Source of the DNA: Fibrobacter sp.
Lineage (GTDB): Bacteria > Fibrobacterota > Fibrobacteria > Fibrobacterales > Fibrobacteraceae
DNA length: 64,000 nucleotides
Assembly (NCBI GenBank): GCA_017475045.1
Contig: JAFVGH010000138.1
Span: forward strand, 1 to 64,000
Direction: 5' to 3'
Shown here: positions 2,787 to 61,937 of the stretch, piece by piece
How positions within the stretch are numbered: the stretch's first letter is position 1
Layout of the letters: each line of letters opens with the position of its first letter
The notes under the pieces: generated by a model
Seen by the model: only the letters and a program-made list of their open reading frames with translations
What the model was told of the DNA's origin: nothing
Database searches by the model: none
Translations under genes and position numbers: made by a program

Positions 2787-3705
2787 TTTCCCGCTGTAGT
2801 TGAATCCCGAATTTCTCGGCGACTTTACTTTGTACGTATTCGCTTAGGTTCTTGATGTCCTGTGCGGTAGCGTTACCGGCGTTTACGATAAAATTGGCGT
2901 GTAATGTGCTGACTTCTGCGCCGCCTATGCGGTAGCCCTTGAGCCCCGTCTGTTCGATGTAGTAGCCGGGGGCGATTTGCGTGGGCATGGTGGCGGCGCC
3001 AACCTCTAGCCGCTTGAAGGTGGAGCCTGCGTTGGGCATGTTCAGGGGTTGCGTGGCCTTGCGTTTGGCCATGCACTCGGCCAGTTCCGCTTCCAGGTCG
3101 GCGACGGTCAGTTCCTGCGAACTTGCGCTTTGCAGTTGGAAAGTAGCCGCGAGAATGATTTTTCCATTGTCATCCCCGGCTTGGCCGGGGATCTCCTTGC
3201 AGTAGTTGAAAATGCTCTGTCTGTATCCAAAGCAGCATTCGGCTGCGGGCAGCTCGCGGATGTTCCCGCCAGCATCAAGGACCGTCACGCCGGTGCAGCA
3301 GTTGCCGACCTCCTGGCCGTAGGCGCCTGCGTTCATGTACACCGCCCCGCCCAAGGTTCCAGGGATTCCAGCCAGCTTGTGTATGCCGGCGTAGCCCTGC
3401 TTTAGGGTGTGGCGGGCGAACCTGCCCAGGGGTGTTGCCGCACCTACCTTGAACTTGCCGTTCCCCAGGTCCGCGATTTCCGAAAAATCTCCGGCGAGGG
3501 AGATGATCACGCCATCGTAGCCCTTGTCCGAGACCAACAGGTTGGTCCCGTTTCCCAAGACAAAGTGGGGGAGTCCCTTTTCCCGAGCCAAGGCAAGGGC
3601 ATTTTTCAGGTCGTCCATGTGTTCGGCCTTGACAAAAAAACGGGCCGGACCACCCACCTTGAAAGAGGTGTGCGCTCTCATCAGCTCGTTTTCTAGGATA
3701 ACCAT
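2758..3705 (-). CDS. murB: UDP-N-acetylenolpyruvoylglucosamine reductase
   Basis: MurB reduces UDP-GlcNAc-enolpyruvate to UDP-MurNAc with NADPH and FAD in peptidoglycan synthesis. The FAD-binding part has SFKVGGPARFF near the N-terminus, then LAGIPGTLGGAVYMNAGAYG, and the catalytic serine lies in NAGSTFKR. About 11 residues (KEIPGQAGDDN) interrupt the normally short stretch between FGYRQSIFN and IILAATFQL. They are encoded by a GTCAT-type palindrome (3169-3196) that keeps the frame. A TATATT hexamer on this strand (3712-3717) is only 6 bp before the ATG, so the transcript may be leaderless. Confidence 0.93.
   Translation of the reverse strand: MVILENELMRAHTSFKVGGPARFFVKAEHMDDLKNALALAREKGLPHFVLGNGTNLLVSDKGYDGVIISLAGDFSEIADLGNGKFKVGAATPLGRFARHTLKQGYAGIHKLAGIPGTLGGAVYMNAGAYGQEVGNCCTGVTVLDAGGNIRELPAAECCFGYRQSIFNYCKEIPGQAGDDNGKIILAATFQLQSASSQELTVADLEAELAECMAKRKATQPLNMPNAGSTFKRLEVGAATMPTQIAPGYYIEQTGLKGYRIGGAEVSTLHANFIVNAGNATAQDIKNLSEYVQSKVAEKFGIQLQREIILLGNFEG
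3169..3196. repeat. GTCAT-type palindrome inserted in frame inside murB
   Basis: A 28-bp inverted repeat with arms CCCCGGC and GCCGGGG, opening with GTCAT and closing with ATCTCC. It has the same design as palindromes at 7057-7240, 7604-7815, 23550-23577, 23901-23927 and 61909-61937. It adds residues to MurB without a stop or frame change. Confidence 0.85.
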
Positions 3706-7056: not shown

Positions 7057-7240
7057 CGTCATGGCGGTTCCGGGTCAAGCCCGGAATGACGTCCGATCCG
7101 CCATCTAGATTCCGGCTCCCCGGATCGGTGTCCGGGGCAGGCTCTGGCCGGAATGACGAAGGAGGGTTATGCTAGATTCCGGGTCAAGCCCGGAATGACG
7201 AAGGGGTTGTACGTCATGGCGGCCTAGAGCCGCCATCTAG
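7057..7240. repeat. Array of GTCAT-type palindromes, upstream side of GIY-YIG gene
   Basis: Four or five short inverted repeats lie end to end. Types seen are GTCATGGCGG...CCGCCATCTAG and CTAGATTCCGG...CCGGAATGACG. At 7057-7108 one unit (TTCCGGGTCAAGCCCGGAA) sits inside the loop of another, a nested insertion. At 7108-7158 a CCCCGG/CCGGGG core is nested in a third. The last unit, 7212-7240, ends 3 bp from the GIY-YIG stop codon. Confidence 0.85.
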
Positions 7241-7243
7241 CCT

Positions 7244-7561
7244 TTAATCAATAGGATTATATTCCATTACTTGGGGAATGAGATTATCCCATGTGGGATT
7301 TTTCTTCATTACAAGATCATTTTTCCATACTCTTTTCCAATTCTTCAGCTGTTTTTCGCGAGAGATTGCATCTCTTATATCTGTATAAACTTCATAATAA
7401 ACCAACTTATGAACTTTATACTTGCCTGTGAAACCCTTATTTGCATCGGATAAGTGGAATTCCATCCGTTGTCTAAGATCACCTGTTACACCGACATACA
7501 TAATGCTGTCCTTTGAATTAGTCATTATGTATACAAAGCTCTTTTTCTGTGTGATATTCAT
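7244..7561 (-). CDS. GIY-YIG endonuclease-fold protein
   Basis: A 105-residue single-domain protein of the UPF0213/YhbQ-like GIY-YIG class. The hallmark YIM..., YVGVTGDLRQRMEFH, GFTGKYKVHKLVYYE, and AISREKQLKNWKRVWK motifs give the catalytic Tyr, Arg and the Glu of SREKQLK. Members are small nucleases with poorly known roles. Arrays of GTCAT-type palindromes flank it on both sides (7057-7240 and 7604-7815), which is unusual and suggests that the gene and the palindromes are linked (inference). Base composition is more AT-rich than the flanking genes. Confidence 0.88.
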   Translation of the reverse strand: MNITQKKSFVYIMTNSKDSIMYVGVTGDLRQRMEFHLSDANKGFTGKYKVHKLVYYEVYTDIRDAISREKQLKNWKRVWKNDLVMKKNPTWDNLIPQVMEYNPID

Positions 7562-7603
7562 GTGTAATAATATAAATACAAAGGTATGACAAATTATGTC
7601 GTT

Positions 7604-7815
7604 ATGCTAAATTCCGTGTCCCCGGATCGAGTCCGGGGCAGGCTCTACCCGGAATGACGTTTAATACAATCGTCATGGCGGGCCTGACCCGCCATCTAGA
7701 ATCTAGATTCCGGCTCGGGGGCCGGAATGACGCAGGAGGGGGGGGCCGGAATGACGCAGGAGGGGTATGCTAGATTCCGGGTCAAGCCCGGAATGACGTT
7801 TAGCCTGGAATGACG
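7604..7815. repeat. Array of GTCAT-type palindromes, second side of GIY-YIG gene
   Basis: Five or six palindromic units including a CCCCGGATCGAGTCCGGGG core within an ATTCCG...CGGAATGACG frame, a GTCATGGCGGG...CCCGCCATCTAG unit (7672-7699), and two CCGGAATGACG units. The stretch GCCGGAATGACGCAGGAGG is tandemly duplicated at about 7721-7765. Nothing in the segment looks coding. Confidence 0.85.
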
Positions 7816-7867: not shown

Positions 7868-9310
7868 TTACGCTTTTGCCTTGTTGAATTTGTCTTTCAG
7901 GTTGCTGGCCTTTTTCTTCGCCTTGTGGAACAGGGCGTTGGGTAGCCAGAAGAAGGTGGGCACCAGGTACATGGTGAGGATGGCGGATACGATCAGGCCA
8001 CCCACGGATGCGATACCCATGGGCTGGGTCATGGCGGCCACGTTACCGCCCAAGGCCATGGCCAAGGGCATCTGGGCCACCACAGAAGCGAAGGTAGCCA
8101 GGGCGATGGGCTGGAACTTGGTCTTGCCCGCCGTCATAATGGCGGAGCGCCTTCCCATAGAACCGCTTCGGAGTAGCCTGTTGGCTTCGTCAAGCAATAG
8201 AATGGCGTTGTTCACCACCACACCGATAAGCATCACGATAGCCATGAGGGCGATCATGGAAAGAGCCTTGCCGGTGAATATCAGGGCGAGGAACACGCCG
8301 ATGGCACCCATCGGGATGGTAGTCATGATAATGAAGGGCTGTGCAAAGCTTTCCAGCAGGGCCACCAGCAAGATATAGGTGAGCAAGATGGCCATGATAA
8401 TGGCGGTCTTGAATTCGTTCACCATGTCTTCTTGCATGTCTGCCTGGGCACCGAAGCTGAAGGAAATACCCTCGGGGAGTTCGTCCTTCATGCTGGCGGT
8501 TAGCTTGCCCAGGTTGCCCATGACCTCGCCGGTGGTGTGGCCAGGCAACAGGTTCATGGAAACGTCCACGCGGGTCATCTTGCGCTTGCGGTCAATACGG
8601 GTGGGGCCTGCACCGTCTTCGATGTAGAACAGGTCGCGGGCGGCCACATAGCCCTTGGGGGTCTTCATGGGCAGGTCTTCGATGTCGGCATGGCTCTTGC
8701 GGTTCTTCTCCTGCATGCGCACATACACGTCGTATTCTTCACCGTCTTCGGTGTACTGACCCGCTTCATAACCGCTCACGGCGATGTAGTTGTAGGTGGC
8801 AAGGGACTGCAGGGTCACGCCGTAGTCGGCCAGGGCCTGCCTGTTGGGAACCAGGCGGATTTCGGGCTTACCCGCCTCGTAGCTGGTCTTTACGTCCACT
8901 ACGCCGGCAATGGTTTCCTTGACCCGGTCCATAATGAGTTCAGAGGCCTTGATCACGGAGTCCTTCTTGAGACCGTTCACTTCGAGCACCACGTCGCCTG
9001 CGCTGTTGTTGTTCATTTCGGAGGCGGATGTGGACTTGATGGCGATATAGGCGTCGGGGATGTCGGCCAGGTAGGGACGCAGGGAGTCCACGATCTGGTC
9101 GGTACTCCTGGTACGGCCTTCCCAGTCCTTCAACAGCTTGATACGCATGGTAGCCTGGTTCACCGTAGCAAAACCGTTGGAACCACCCACGTTCACGCTG
9201 TAATGGACAATTTCGGGAACATCCTTGACACGGTCCTCGATAATTTTCGCGATACTGTCGGTGGTTTCCACGTTGGTGCCCACGGGCATTTCCAGCTTGA
9301 TGCTGATCAT
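7868..9310 (-). CDS. RND efflux pump, C-terminal half (split gene)
   Basis: This is the second half of an AcrB/HAE1-type resistance-nodulation-division transporter: periplasmic DN/DC-type subdomains, then the second group of transmembrane segments (FKTAIIMAILLTYILLVALLE, MIALMAIVMLIGVVVNNAILLLDEANR). It reads in the same frame as the upstream half and is separated from it only by one TAG (9314-9316). Its own ATG is two codons beyond that stop, with no clear ribosome site. It may be a dead remnant, a reinitiated half-protein, or a product of read-through. Together the halves have 1046 residues, a normal RND length. Confidence 0.85.
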   Translation of the reverse strand: MISIKLEMPVGTNVETTDSIAKIIEDRVKDVPEIVHYSVNVGGSNGFATVNQATMRIKLLKDWEGRTRSTDQIVDSLRPYLADIPDAYIAIKSTSASEMNNNSAGDVVLEVNGLKKDSVIKASELIMDRVKETIAGVVDVKTSYEAGKPEIRLVPNRQALADYGVTLQSLATYNYIAVSGYEAGQYTEDGEEYDVYVRMQEKNRKSHADIEDLPMKTPKGYVAARDLFYIEDGAGPTRIDRKRKMTRVDVSMNLLPGHTTGEVMGNLGKLTASMKDELPEGISFSFGAQADMQEDMVNEFKTAIIMAILLTYILLVALLESFAQPFIIMTTIPMGAIGVFLALIFTGKALSMIALMAIVMLIGVVVNNAILLLDEANRLLRSGSMGRRSAIMTAGKTKFQPIALATFASVVAQMPLAMALGGNVAAMTQPMGIASVGGLIVSAILTMYLVPTFFWLPNALFHKAKKKASNLKDKFNKAKA

Positions 9311-9313
9311 GCC

Positions 9314-11014
9314 CTAGTCCTGCTTAGGCATAATTTCCACCGTCATGTGGTTGGCGGCCATATAGCCCACGAAAAGGAGCATAGCGATCAGGGCGACCAC
9401 CTGGAACAGCACTCCCGGAATGGAAAGGCAGAACGACAGGGTTTTCAGATATACAAAGCGGATGCCGTTGAGGGCAGTGGGGAACAGCCCGAGAATGCGT
9501 CCCACCACGGAGGGCTTTTCTTCGATAATGTTTCCGTTCTCGTCTTTCTTTTTGCCCTTGAACAGGTAGGCCGCCAGAAGCGGGGTCAAGGTAAAGGTGG
9601 CGAGCAGGGACACCAAGGTGGCAAACACCATGGTAAGGCCGAAGGTACGGAAGAAGATACCGGCGATGGATTTCATGAAGGCGATAGGCACGAACACGCA
9701 CACGTTAGTAAGCGTAGATGCCATGATAGCCACCATGATTTCGGAGGTTCCCTTGTAGGCTGCCTCTTTCGGATCCAGGCCTTCGTTCAGTTTCACGTTG
9801 ATATTTTCAAGCACCACGATGGCGTTGGTCACCAACAAGCCCACCGACGATGACAATGCCATCAGGGACATCATGTTGATGCCGAATCCAGCAAAGTACA
9901 TCAGGGTAAAGGCACCGATCACGGAGGTCGGCATGGTGAGGGCCGCAATGAACATGGTGGAGAACTTGCCGAGGAACAAGAGCAAGAGTCCTGCGGTAAG
10001 CACGATAGCGATAATCACGTTCTGGATCACGTTGTCGATGGATTCGTTCACCGCTTCGGACTTGTCGTACACCAGGTGAAGTTCGAAACCTTCGGGAAGG
10101 CTCTTGTTGACGGCGTTCATGCGCTTGATGACGCCCTTGGAAACGTCCACCACGTTGGCGTCGGAACGCTTCTTGATATCCAGGGAGATAGAACTTGTGC
10201 CGTTGAAACGGGAAATGGATGAAATGGTCTCGATGGTGTCCTTGACTTTTGCAACCTCGGAGAGCTTGATAACGCCGTTGGCCGTGGGAATATCCATGTT
10301 GCGCATTTCGTCCAGGCTCTGGAACTTGCCTGCCGTACGCACAGAGGTGTTCTTGTGCTTGCCGATGACTTCGCCCACGGGGTAGTTCAGGTTGGACTGG
10401 CCGTACATACCCATGATGGTGGCAATGTCGATGCCACGGTCCTTCATCTTGTCCTTGTCAAGTTCGATAGAAATCTGGCGGGTAGTACCACCGAAAACAT
10501 CCACGCTGGCCACACCCGAGACGGAGGTGAACAGGGGTTCGATTTCGTCTTCCACCATCTGGCGGAGTTCCGTGGAGTTCAGCGGACCCGTAAAGGAAAT
10601 AGCCATGATGGCTGCACCGTTGATGTCCACCTTGGAAATGATAGGGGGTTCCACGGCGTCGGGGAAGTCGGCCGCCGCAAGTTCCACCTTGGAACGCACG
10701 TCGTTTGCCGCCACGTCTACGTTGACGCCCATGTTGAACATGGCGACGATAATGCCGTAGTTCTCGAGGCAGATGGACTGCACGTAGTCGATACCGTCCA
10801 CCAGTTCCACCTGTTCTTCGACAGGCTTGATAACGGTGGTCTCGATTTCTTCGGGGCTTGCGCCCGCGTAAATCATGGTTGCCGTGACCACCGGAACTTC
10901 GAATTTCGGCATCAGGTCCACGACCATCATGGTGTAGGTGTACAGACCGAAAACCACCACGGTCAAGATGACCATGAGCATGGTAATCGGTTTATAAATA
11001 CTGGCCTTGATCAT
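9314..11014 (-). CDS. RND efflux pump, N-terminal half, ends at in-frame TAG
   Basis: It begins with the typical MIKASIYKPITMLMVILTVVVFGLYTY helix, then periplasmic PN1/PN2-type sequence and transmembrane segments 2-6, including the charged-relay helix region LMALSSSVGLLVTNAIVVLENI. The reading ends with MPKQD followed by TAG, then GMISIKLEMPVGT in the same frame. Homologues have a residue such as Q at this point, so a single CAG to TAG change is the simplest explanation. TAG is an ordinary stop elsewhere in the window (for example at 5809), so recoding is not expected. First helix start and 3-gene operon order (TolC, adaptor, pump) are normal. Confidence 0.87.
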   Translation of the reverse strand: MIKASIYKPITMLMVILTVVVFGLYTYTMMVVDLMPKFEVPVVTATMIYAGASPEEIETTVIKPVEEQVELVDGIDYVQSICLENYGIIVAMFNMGVNVDVAANDVRSKVELAAADFPDAVEPPIISKVDINGAAIMAISFTGPLNSTELRQMVEDEIEPLFTSVSGVASVDVFGGTTRQISIELDKDKMKDRGIDIATIMGMYGQSNLNYPVGEVIGKHKNTSVRTAGKFQSLDEMRNMDIPTANGVIKLSEVAKVKDTIETISSISRFNGTSSISLDIKKRSDANVVDVSKGVIKRMNAVNKSLPEGFELHLVYDKSEAVNESIDNVIQNVIIAIVLTAGLLLLFLGKFSTMFIAALTMPTSVIGAFTLMYFAGFGINMMSLMALSSSVGLLVTNAIVVLENINVKLNEGLDPKEAAYKGTSEIMVAIMASTLTNVCVFVPIAFMKSIAGIFFRTFGLTMVFATLVSLLATFTLTPLLAAYLFKGKKKDENGNIIEEKPSVVGRILGLFPTALNGIRFVYLKTLSFCLSIPGVLFQVVALIAMLLFVGYMAANHMTVEIMPKQD

Positions 11015-23303: not shown

Positions 23304-23486
23304 AATGCATCCTCCTTCGTTTTGGGGGGCGAATTTACAAATTGTCCCCCCGGAAGAGTGCAAACAACTGTTGCTTTTTTGAAGGGCGGCCCGGCGCTCC
23401 CGCGCCGTCACGCTCTATTTTGTGGGGCTCCGCTTCGCCTGGCGGCTCGCGCACCCCTCACAAAACCGAGCCTCGCTTCACTCGCC

Positions 23487-23577
23487 GTCATCCCCGCGCG
23501 CAATCATGTCATCCCCGCGCGCCATCATGTCATCCCCGCGCACCATCATGTCATCCCCGCGAAGGCGGGGATCTCCT
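23487..23577 (+). repeat. Four 21-bp tandem half-palindromes ending in a full GTCAT palindrome
   Basis: GTCATCCCCGCG starts at 23487, 23508, 23529 and 23550, each exactly 21 bp apart, with CAATCAT, CCATCAT, CCATCAT between. Only the last copy continues into the second arm (GGCGGGGATCTCC). The surrounding 23304-23740 (437 bp) is GC-rich and holds no gene I can support. Confidence 0.88.
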
Positions 23578-23741: not shown

Positions 23742-24529
23742 TGCACGGTCTTGTCTCCATAATCATGCCCAGCTACAACACGGGTCGGTTCATAGCCGAG
23801 TCGATACAGTCCGTATTGGCTCAGACCTACACCAACTGGGAACTGATTATCGTTGACGACGCCAGCACCGACAACACCGACGAAGTTGTTGCCCCCTATT
23901 GTCATCCCCGCGAAGGCGGGGATCTCCTGTCATCAAAAATCCATTACCTCAAAAACGCCCAAAACAGCGGGGCCGCGGTCTCCCGCAACCGCGCCCTCGC
24001 ACAGGCAAAAGGCAAATGGATAGCCTTCCTCGACAGCGACGACCTCTGGGCCCCCGAAAAACTCGAAAAACAAATCAAGTTCATGGCCGGAAACGGCTAT
24101 GCCTTCAGTTACACCCGCTACGAAGAAATTGACGAAAATGGCAACCCGACAGGAACGCTCGTGGGCGGCCCAAGACGCATCACCAAGACGGGAATGTTCA
24201 ATTACTGCTGGCCCGGTTGCCTGACTGTGATGTATAACCGCGAAGTCGTAGGCGACATCCAGATTGCCGATATCCGTAAGAACAACGATTACGCCATCTG
24301 GCTCAAGGCATGTCGCAAGGCGGATTGCTACTTGCTCCCTGAAACGCTGGCAAGTTACCGCAAAAGGGGCGGCTCAATCAGCAATCACAGCTATGTAGCC
24401 CTTATCAAGTGGCATTACAAGCTCTATCGCGAAGCCGAAGGCTTGAATCCAATCAGTTCGCTCTGGATTACTGCGAGGAATCTGTTTTTCGGCGTATGGA
24501 AAAAATTTAGGTATGTAAGAACTAAATAA
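23741..24529 (+). CDS. GT2-family glycosyltransferase with in-frame palindrome insert
   Basis: A GT-A enzyme for surface-glycan assembly: SIIMPSYNTGRFIAESIQSVLAQTY, LIIVDDASTDNTDEVV, AAVSRNRAL and the DxD metal site FLDSDDLW. Between DEVVAPY and KIHYLKN sit about ten extra residues (CHPREGGDLLS) encoded by a GTCAT palindrome (23901-23927). The frame is kept and the motifs on either side are intact. It starts after GGAGGAGG at 23726-23733. It is the last GC-rich gene before the AT-rich part of the cluster. Confidence 0.88.
   Translation: MHGLVSIIMPSYNTGRFIAESIQSVLAQTYTNWELIIVDDASTDNTDEVVAPYCHPREGGDLLSSKIHYLKNAQNSGAAVSRNRALAQAKGKWIAFLDSDDLWAPEKLEKQIKFMAGNGYAFSYTRYEEIDENGNPTGTLVGGPRRITKTGMFNYCWPGCLTVMYNREVVGDIQIADIRKNNDYAIWLKACRKADCYLLPETLASYRKRGGSISNHSYVALIKWHYKLYREAEGLNPISSLWITARNLFFGVWKKFRYVRTK
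23901..23927. repeat. GTCAT palindrome inserted in frame inside the GT2 gene
   Basis: GTCATCCCCGCG and GGCGGGGATCTCC, identical to the last unit of the tandem array 350 bp upstream. It is translated as CHPREGGDL. Confidence 0.88.
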
Positions 24530-61908: not shown

Positions 61909-61937
61909 CGTCATGGCGGCCTTGAGCCGCCATCTAG
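61909..61937. repeat. GTCAT palindrome at the end of the aryl-polyene-type operon
   Basis: GTCATGGCGGC...GCCGCCATCTAG, same type as 7212-7240. It lies between two convergent genes, the typical place for a palindrome to act as terminator or survive without harm. Confidence 0.85.

Follow-up and report, generated by a model that had tools for sequence, protein, structure and literature searches.

A subfamily of small, single-domain GIY-YIG nucleases is probably the dedicated partner of the CGTC-tagged REP palindromes of bacteria, in a role like that of the RAYT transposases. The gene behind this proposal lies in a 64-kb stretch of Fibrobacter DNA, analysed at its full length and called the window below. 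An earlier note on this DNA had described the gene as embedded between two palindrome clusters, and the arrangement is borne out: six of the ten clear tagged hairpins in the window fall at 7057–7798, and the rest lie near 3168, 23549, 23900 and 61909 (Table 1). Well beyond the window, the association between the GIY-YIG gene and CGTC REPs is established computationally. By analogy with the RAYT system, spreading of these REPs by the enzyme appears likely, and the family is the best candidate yet for that function.

Judged by their sequence, the palindromes fit a known class, the CGTC-tagged REPs (PMC3733652); the family picked out in the earlier note is real but had already been classified. 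Members are defined by a CGTC (or TGTC, CCTC) tag, an AT at the stem base, a stem of 8–9, a loop of 4–5 and a short tail. The class, with palindromes of 20–40 bp, comprises CGTC-1 to -4, Neisseria dRS3, and Rickettsia RPE-4 and RPE-6 (PMC3733652). Di Nocera (2013) stated that CGTC REPs "lack a dedicated transposase", found no RAYT with CGTC-unit flanks, and predicted extinct or borrowed transposases (PMC3733652). The units studied here share with that class its tag, the AT that every stem has at its base, the 4–5 nt loops and the short unpaired tails. What goes beyond the published account is a specific, probable GIY-YIG partner and the occurrence in Fibrobacterota and many other phyla that are not on the paper's list. 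The label 'GTCAT palindromes' holds for the family and not for its exact form: GTCAT-N4-ATGAC is absent, and the actual unit, (C/T)GTC-AT-stem-loop-stem-AT-C(T/C)N, carries its tag at one end only.

Loops in the window are 4–6 nt long, usually CTTGA, and the short tail is CTAG; this 3′-tail and the nested and large-loop units add to what had been noted before. The base preceding GTC is C in 104 units, T in 84, A in 11 and G in 1. A stem of 8 with a loop of 5 occurs in 147 of 192 near-gene units, and the tails observed are CCAG, CCAT, CTAG and CTCC. Among 60 distinct units near GIY-YIG genes the 8-bp stem is 100% paired, five of its eight pairs show compensatory change, three never vary (A-T, T-A and one G-C), and stem covariation is 0.635 against 0.188 after shuffling. 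Orphan half units found beside identical full units represent the tagged side rather than the other side by 12 to 1; in this small sample, the excess is a hint of polar cleavage or insertion.

REP-type units fill 7057–7240 and about 7603–7815, on either side of the gene, which is also bracketed by a 55-nt direct repeat (7744–7798 and 7146–7200, 96%). The sequence CCGGAATGAC occurs seven times in the window, each time within 7081–7797. The 52-nt composite at 7057–7108 has a near-identical copy elsewhere in the genome (G000:C17, about 12007). Genome-wide, one stem type gave 51 listed matches with at most three mismatches against 0 for a reversed-pattern control, and the covariance model matched at least 55 REPs, the majority of which lie at a distance from GIY-YIG genes. 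Dispersed copies number at least 99 and at least 105 in two other genomes. Some features of the window stand by themselves. A ladder of three CCCCGCG half units with 21-nt spacing runs through 23485–23577 beside a glycosyltransferase-like ORF, and the TGTC copy at about 23900 appears to lie inside this same ORF. The loop CCCCGGATCnAGTCCGGGGCArGCTC, itself palindromic, is common to 7603–7659 and a Polaromonas GIY-YIG locus (L084:10300-10325). An RND efflux gene (7868–9310 and 9314–11014, minus strand) is split by an in-frame TAG at 9311–9313; two relatives (L179 and L181) read CTGGTC where the window has CTAGTC, so the stop is a point change or an assembly error here.

Table 1. The GIY-YIG gene and the palindromic units of the window, with positions in the 64-kb stretch
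Positions	Strand	Feature	Evidence
3168..3196	+	Solitary TGTC REP, stem ATCCCCGG	
7057..7108	.	Composite: TTCCGGG-type REP (-) nested in the loop of a TGGCGG-type REP (+)	Sequence, second copy
7105..7158	-	Large-loop REP (ATTCCGG...CCGGAATGACG), inner palindrome within the loop	Sequence
7172..7200	-	CGTC REP, stem ATTCCGGG, loop CTTGA, tail CTAG; model R1, 47 bits	Sequence, covariance model
7212..7240	+	CGTC REP, stem ATGGCGGC, tail CTAG; 4 bp past the GIY-YIG stop codon	
7244..7561	-	GIY-YIG gene, 105 aa, single domain	ORF, Pfam, 40-homologue alignment, AlphaFold2
7603..7659	-	Large-loop REP upstream of the GIY-YIG gene, inner loop CCCCGGATCnAGTCCGGGGCAGGCTC	
7671..7699	+	CGTC REP, stem ATGGCGGG, tail CTAG	
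7703..7732	-	CGTC REP, stem ATTCCGGC, 6-nt loop	
7744..7756	-	Orphan 5′ half unit CGTCATTCCGGCC, partner arm missing	
7770..7798	-	CGTC REP, sequence identical to 7172-7200	
7804..7815	-	Orphan 5′ half unit CGTCATTCCAGG	
23549..23577	+	TGTC REP, stem ATCCCCGC, ends the half-unit ladder	
23900..23928	+	Second copy of the 23549-23577 TGTC REP	
61909..61937	+	Solitary CGTC REP, TGGCGG type, far from the GIY-YIG gene	

The predicted protein matches Pfam GIY-YIG (PF01541) over residues 8–78 (64.3 bits, E=1.3e-17, profile positions 2–74 of 78). This was the only family matched in the Pfam search, and the HUH/Y1 domain PF01797 was unmatched. An alignment of 40 homologues has 20 invariant residues, which include the catalytic Tyr, Tyr, Arg and Glu (Y11, Y22, R32 and E69), H36 and N88, and a REKQLK...W motif; REKQLKNWKR and a conserved C-terminal N-P-x-W are hallmarks of the subfamily. 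AlphaFold2 confidently models one GIY-YIG fold (mean pLDDT 90); among solved structures, UPF0213 proteins and Slx1 come closest to it. The UPF0213 structure 1zg2 also matches in sequence (E=4e-6), and the NCBIfam UPF0213 profile gives no match. UPF0213/YhbQ proteins (1zg2, 1ywl) are likewise single domains, of about 95 aa, and are the nearest solved relatives by sequence and fold; the present proteins appear to form a distinct subfamily. The catalytic fold and residues are those of I-TevI, I-BmoI and Slx1, enzymes from which the subfamily differs in having no NUMOD/DNA-binding or RING domain and no intron, and in its REP flanks. Three GIY-YIG genes, UvrC among them, occur in the source genome, and a close relative (L034) has a homologous protein that is 92% identical. 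Across genomes the subfamily is multicopy and patchy. In three Bacteroidota genomes (G327, G361 and G340) there are 13–18 GIY-YIG model matches each, weaker subfamilies included, several with internal stops, as expected for a proliferating and decaying mobile gene.

Beyond Fibrobacter, REPs hug this gene to a degree that makes the proximity bias very strong across 15 named phyla. We examined 80 loci from these phyla, picked from genome contigs by protein sequence alone. The density of GTC-tagged hairpins falls from 6.38 per kb within 100 bp of the gene to 2.60 at 100–200 bp, 1.25 at 200–400 bp, 0.37 at 400–700 bp and ∼0.05 beyond 1 kb. In intergenic DNA only, it is 4.4 per kb near the gene and 0.24 per kb far from it, an 18-fold difference. 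A GTC hairpin lies within 300 bp of 66 of the 80 GIY-YIG genes and of 38 of 620 control ORFs on the same contigs. When one control ORF per locus was drawn 10,000 times, the maximum was 12 loci against 64 of 77 observed. The signal is also specific to the tag: of 14 tags put through the same hairpin rule within 500 bp, GTC gave 191 hairpins and the 13 others 0–4 (GTA gave none). All 15 of the named phyla sampled have REP flanks; they include Bacteroidota, Pseudomonadota, Bacillota, Campylobacterota, Elusimicrobiota, Spirochaetota and several candidate phyla. REPs stand on both sides at 41 of the 80 loci, and the nearest flanking units are inverted, with GTC outward, at 23 of 34 two-sided loci (binomial p=2e-7 against 25%).

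Possession of a GIY-YIG domain does not by itself account for the flanks. The control set comprised 20 alphaproteobacterial and 20 Fibrobacterota genes of other GIY-YIG subfamilies (model scores 24–63 bits), not individually typed as UPF0213. Flanking GTC hairpins were found at 0 of these 40 under the strict rule and at 2 of 40 under a relaxed one, and we reject the explanation that any GIY-YIG gene would be so flanked. Among close homologues, 119 of 180 have a GTC hairpin under the relaxed rule, and about one third have no recognizable GTC-tagged hairpin even with relaxed rules. Many close homologues that are negative under the strict rule have variant units; at one such locus (L366) the gene has GTC-GTCCCGGC...GCCGGGAC on either side, so the true REP-flanked rate is probably higher. 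Two other candidates were set aside. DUF559 was considered as a second REP partner because a DUF559 gene occupies the sufB-sufC gap in Sphingomonas; GTC hairpins were present at 0 of 8 DUF559 loci from REP-rich genomes, and DUF559 in only 4 of the 20 genomes searched. Phages as carriers gave two weak matches only.

Gene and REPs also occur together in unselected genomes, significantly so in Bacteroidota and Alphaproteobacteria. REP counts per genome are lower bounds, the model (R1) favours the 5-nt-loop class, and the genomes are not phylogenetically independent. With these limits, at least five REPs are found in 21 of 50 Bacteroidota genomes with the subfamily and 0 of 68 without it (118 genomes, p=7e-10), and in 14 of 32 and 5 of 74 genomes of Alphaproteobacteria (106 genomes, p=2e-5). 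In Fibrobacterota outside Fibrobacter (72 genomes) the trend is weak: 5 of 10 genomes with the subfamily have at least one REP against 8 of 62 without, and at five or more copies the counts of 2 of 10 and 2 of 62 do not differ significantly (p=0.09). A Mantel-Haenszel test over the three samples, at five or more copies and with genomes treated as independent, gives p=5e-14. Gene-bearing genomes had no R1 match in 21 of 50 Bacteroidota and 15 of 32 Alphaproteobacteria, where R1 covers mainly one loop class. The expectation that palindromes are lost where the gene is absent holds between lineages but fails inside Fibrobacter, where six genomes without any GIY-YIG match keep 8–28 copies (lower bounds). 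REPs without a detected subfamily gene also occur in G049 (at least 37) and in the alphaproteobacterial G148 (at least 70) and G251 (at least 50). In such genomes they may be relics of a lost gene, signs of unassembled genes, or the mark of another partner. Proximity, co-occurrence and the lack of palindromes at other GIY-YIG subfamilies together support the RAYT/REP analogy drawn in the earlier note.

Stem type follows protein sequence. Over 99 loci, a shared stem type goes with greater protein similarity, by 0.08 identity units over all pairs and by 0.065 over pairs from different classes, and neither value was reached in any of 5000 within-class permutations. Nearest neighbours agree in stem type in 61% of cases against 32% expected. 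Such covariation can mean that the protein recognizes the stem or that gene and repeats are transferred jointly; joint inheritance of gene and repeats would also produce covariation without recognition. Whether by recognition or by joint transfer, the GIY-YIG gene and its REPs would be bound as a unit. Isoleucine at alignment column 6 occurs in 3 of 28 TG-type proteins and 57 of 71 others, a contrast confounded by phylogeny, and for that reason stem-type-linked residues of this kind are not claimed as specificity determinants.

Known carriers of CGTC REPs provide three further examples, all from a plasmid collection that includes some mis-filed chromosomes. The Neisseria, S. meliloti and A. 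lipoferum groups are all on the published carrier list (PMC3733652). In Neisseria gonorrhoeae dRS3 units surround the gene, 11 of them within about 1 kb on either side, and on Sinorhizobium meliloti pSymB it lies amid CCTC-tagged units. In Azospirillum lipoferum 4B four REPs, arranged as two inverted pairs, accompany the gene in the sufB-sufC interval (L207:2877-3377). This interval is only 87–129 bp long, with no GIY-YIG gene or REP, in three relatives with ∼94% identical flanks, namely A. oryzae, A. ramasamyi and Azospirillum sp. B510. Another GIY-YIG gene, with different stems, occupies what is apparently the corresponding suf-cluster gap in Shinella sp. PSBB067 (L211:1629-2047). Insertion sites vary, and the sufB-sufC gap is apparently used in both Azospirillum and Shinella. 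The DUF559 gene of the Sphingomonas gap (L212:1696-2106) stands without REPs, and the gap is possibly an insertion hot spot for small nuclease genes. In a Fibrobacter relative with no GIY-YIG match (G113), 101 bp take the place of 862 bp in the window. Two orthologous sites of this relative are also without their units: a single REP at one (L028) and, at the other (L015), a nested composite nearly identical to window 7057–7108. These presence/absence sites are unpolarized, their junctions are not clean, none shows a clean duplication of the target, and deletion could account for part of them; the intergenic DNA of relatives is too diverged for clean insertion boundaries.

Other accounts of the association differ in what the gene would be doing beside the REPs. 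It could be a homing-type parasite that cuts at REPs and inserts by recombination, with the REPs spreading otherwise or no longer at all. GIY-YIG domains are classical homing nucleases (PMC1564403), the gene often sits between the arms of an inverted REP pair, several genomes have REPs without it, and it is often multicopy, with up to 18 model matches (weaker subfamilies included) in one Bacteroidota genome. Such a parasite would need resident REPs, yet many gene-bearing genomes show few or none, and the REP-rich Bacteroidota (at least five copies) have the gene in 21 of 21 cases. In A. lipoferum and N. gonorrhoeae, moreover, the gene is not inside a REP pair but has a complete pair on each side, and the protein has no DNA-binding domain besides the catalytic one, unlike the I-TevI type. 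We consider homing at REPs unlikely. A maintenance nuclease dedicated to REPs, which would cut or trim extruded palindromes or process REP transcripts without spreading them, the flanking units being regulatory (for example, terminators or feedback sites), is an improbable reading. Its UPF0213 and Slx1 relatives by fold would suit hairpin or branch recognition, and REPs do hug the gene ends, as with the unit just past the stop codon in the window; the presence and absence of gene and REPs, the high copy number, the patchiness and the pseudogenized copies look mobile rather than housekeeping.

Mobilization of CGTC REPs by RAYT or other Y1 (HUH) transposases, a possibility raised in the 2013 study (PMC3733652), is very improbable. 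Y1 transposase matches occur in 17 of 24 REP-rich genomes, and GTC hairpins lie near 2 of 30 Y1 loci from REP-rich genomes, one of them in the GIY-less, REP-rich G148. The remaining 28 loci have none, the REP-rich G105, G063, G151 and G251 have no Y1 match, and in that same study no RAYT gene had CGTC units at its flanks; Y1/RAYT enzymes were accordingly rejected as the agents that move these REPs. At the G148 locus itself (L415:202-777 region), in a GIY-YIG-poor genome, a pair of inverted GTC hairpins lies close to an ORF that resembles a Y1 transposase, possibly an alternative partner in that lineage. Least credible is hitch-hiking, in which REPs and small nuclease genes would pile up in neutral intergenic or island DNA. 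Both are indeed intergenic and patchily distributed, but the far intergenic DNA of the same loci is 18-fold poorer in REPs, other GIY-YIG subfamilies, DUF559 and Y1 genes are without REP enrichment, and the outward orientation bias and the stem/protein covariation are left unexplained. The controls bring this account close to refutation.

The reading of the GIY-YIG subfamily as a dedicated REP partner has a close parallel. RAYT/REP systems (REPIN, BIME) pair GTAG-tagged palindromes with HUH, IS200/IS605-like tyrosine transposases (PMC2817692, PMC3116915), and an inverted flanking pair is the arrangement reported for RAYT genes (PMC2817692). In both systems a pair of short palindromes, inverted relative to each other and each with a fixed tetranucleotide at one foot, encloses a single gene; non-autonomous copies are scattered in large numbers, palindrome type covaries with the protein, and gene presence tracks abundance. 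The differences lie in the enzyme, by family a hydrolytic GIY-YIG nuclease that has neither the HUH fold nor covalent tyrosine chemistry, in the tag, which is CGTC or TGTC and not GTAG, and in the GIY-YIG gene also being multicopy. Selfish-gene behaviour would be shared with the homing enzymes I-TevI and I-BmoI, and the branched-DNA specificity of Slx1 offers another parallel.

GIY-YIG enzymes hydrolyse DNA with no covalent intermediate and, to our knowledge, have no strand-transfer chemistry; Slx1 is a structure-selective nuclease of branched DNA. We lean towards a broader model, in which CGTC REPs, dRS3 included, would be mobile palindromes of pan-bacterial range that owe their spread to a hydrolytic, non-HUH enzyme of GIY-YIG type; this enzyme would read hairpins through the GTC foot and a family-specific stem. 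The system would then be a second, independently evolved solution of REP/RAYT type, working by homing-like cut-and-repair and not as a transposase. The nuclease would recognize the REP, extruded as a hairpin or cruciform, from the GTC foot together with the sequence of the stem, and would nick or cut the REP at the foot. Re-joining would be left to host repair. At a second intergenic site that is broken or single-stranded, this repair would copy or capture the palindrome, in some cases along with the gene that the REPs enclose; copying is assigned to the host since enzymes of this hydrolytic family are not known to carry out strand transfer. The GIY-YIG gene would thus travel as a REP-bounded unit, and most palindromes would be its non-autonomous copies.

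Few short repeats of bacteria are as widespread as the CGTC palindromes, and how they spread has been a question since 2013, when the study that defined them concluded that no transposase is dedicated to them. Our search of the open-access literature (subscription journals and preprints lay outside its scope) found no paper that links a GIY-YIG gene to CGTC REPs. The partner reported missing in 2013 now has a candidate in one small, expressible enzyme family, and with a likely partner family named, the question becomes testable in the tube. If the proposal is true, two nucleases of unrelated origin have each given rise to a REP lifestyle, and a class of hairpin-reading GIY-YIG enzymes, with naturally diversified stem specificity, would be added to those known.
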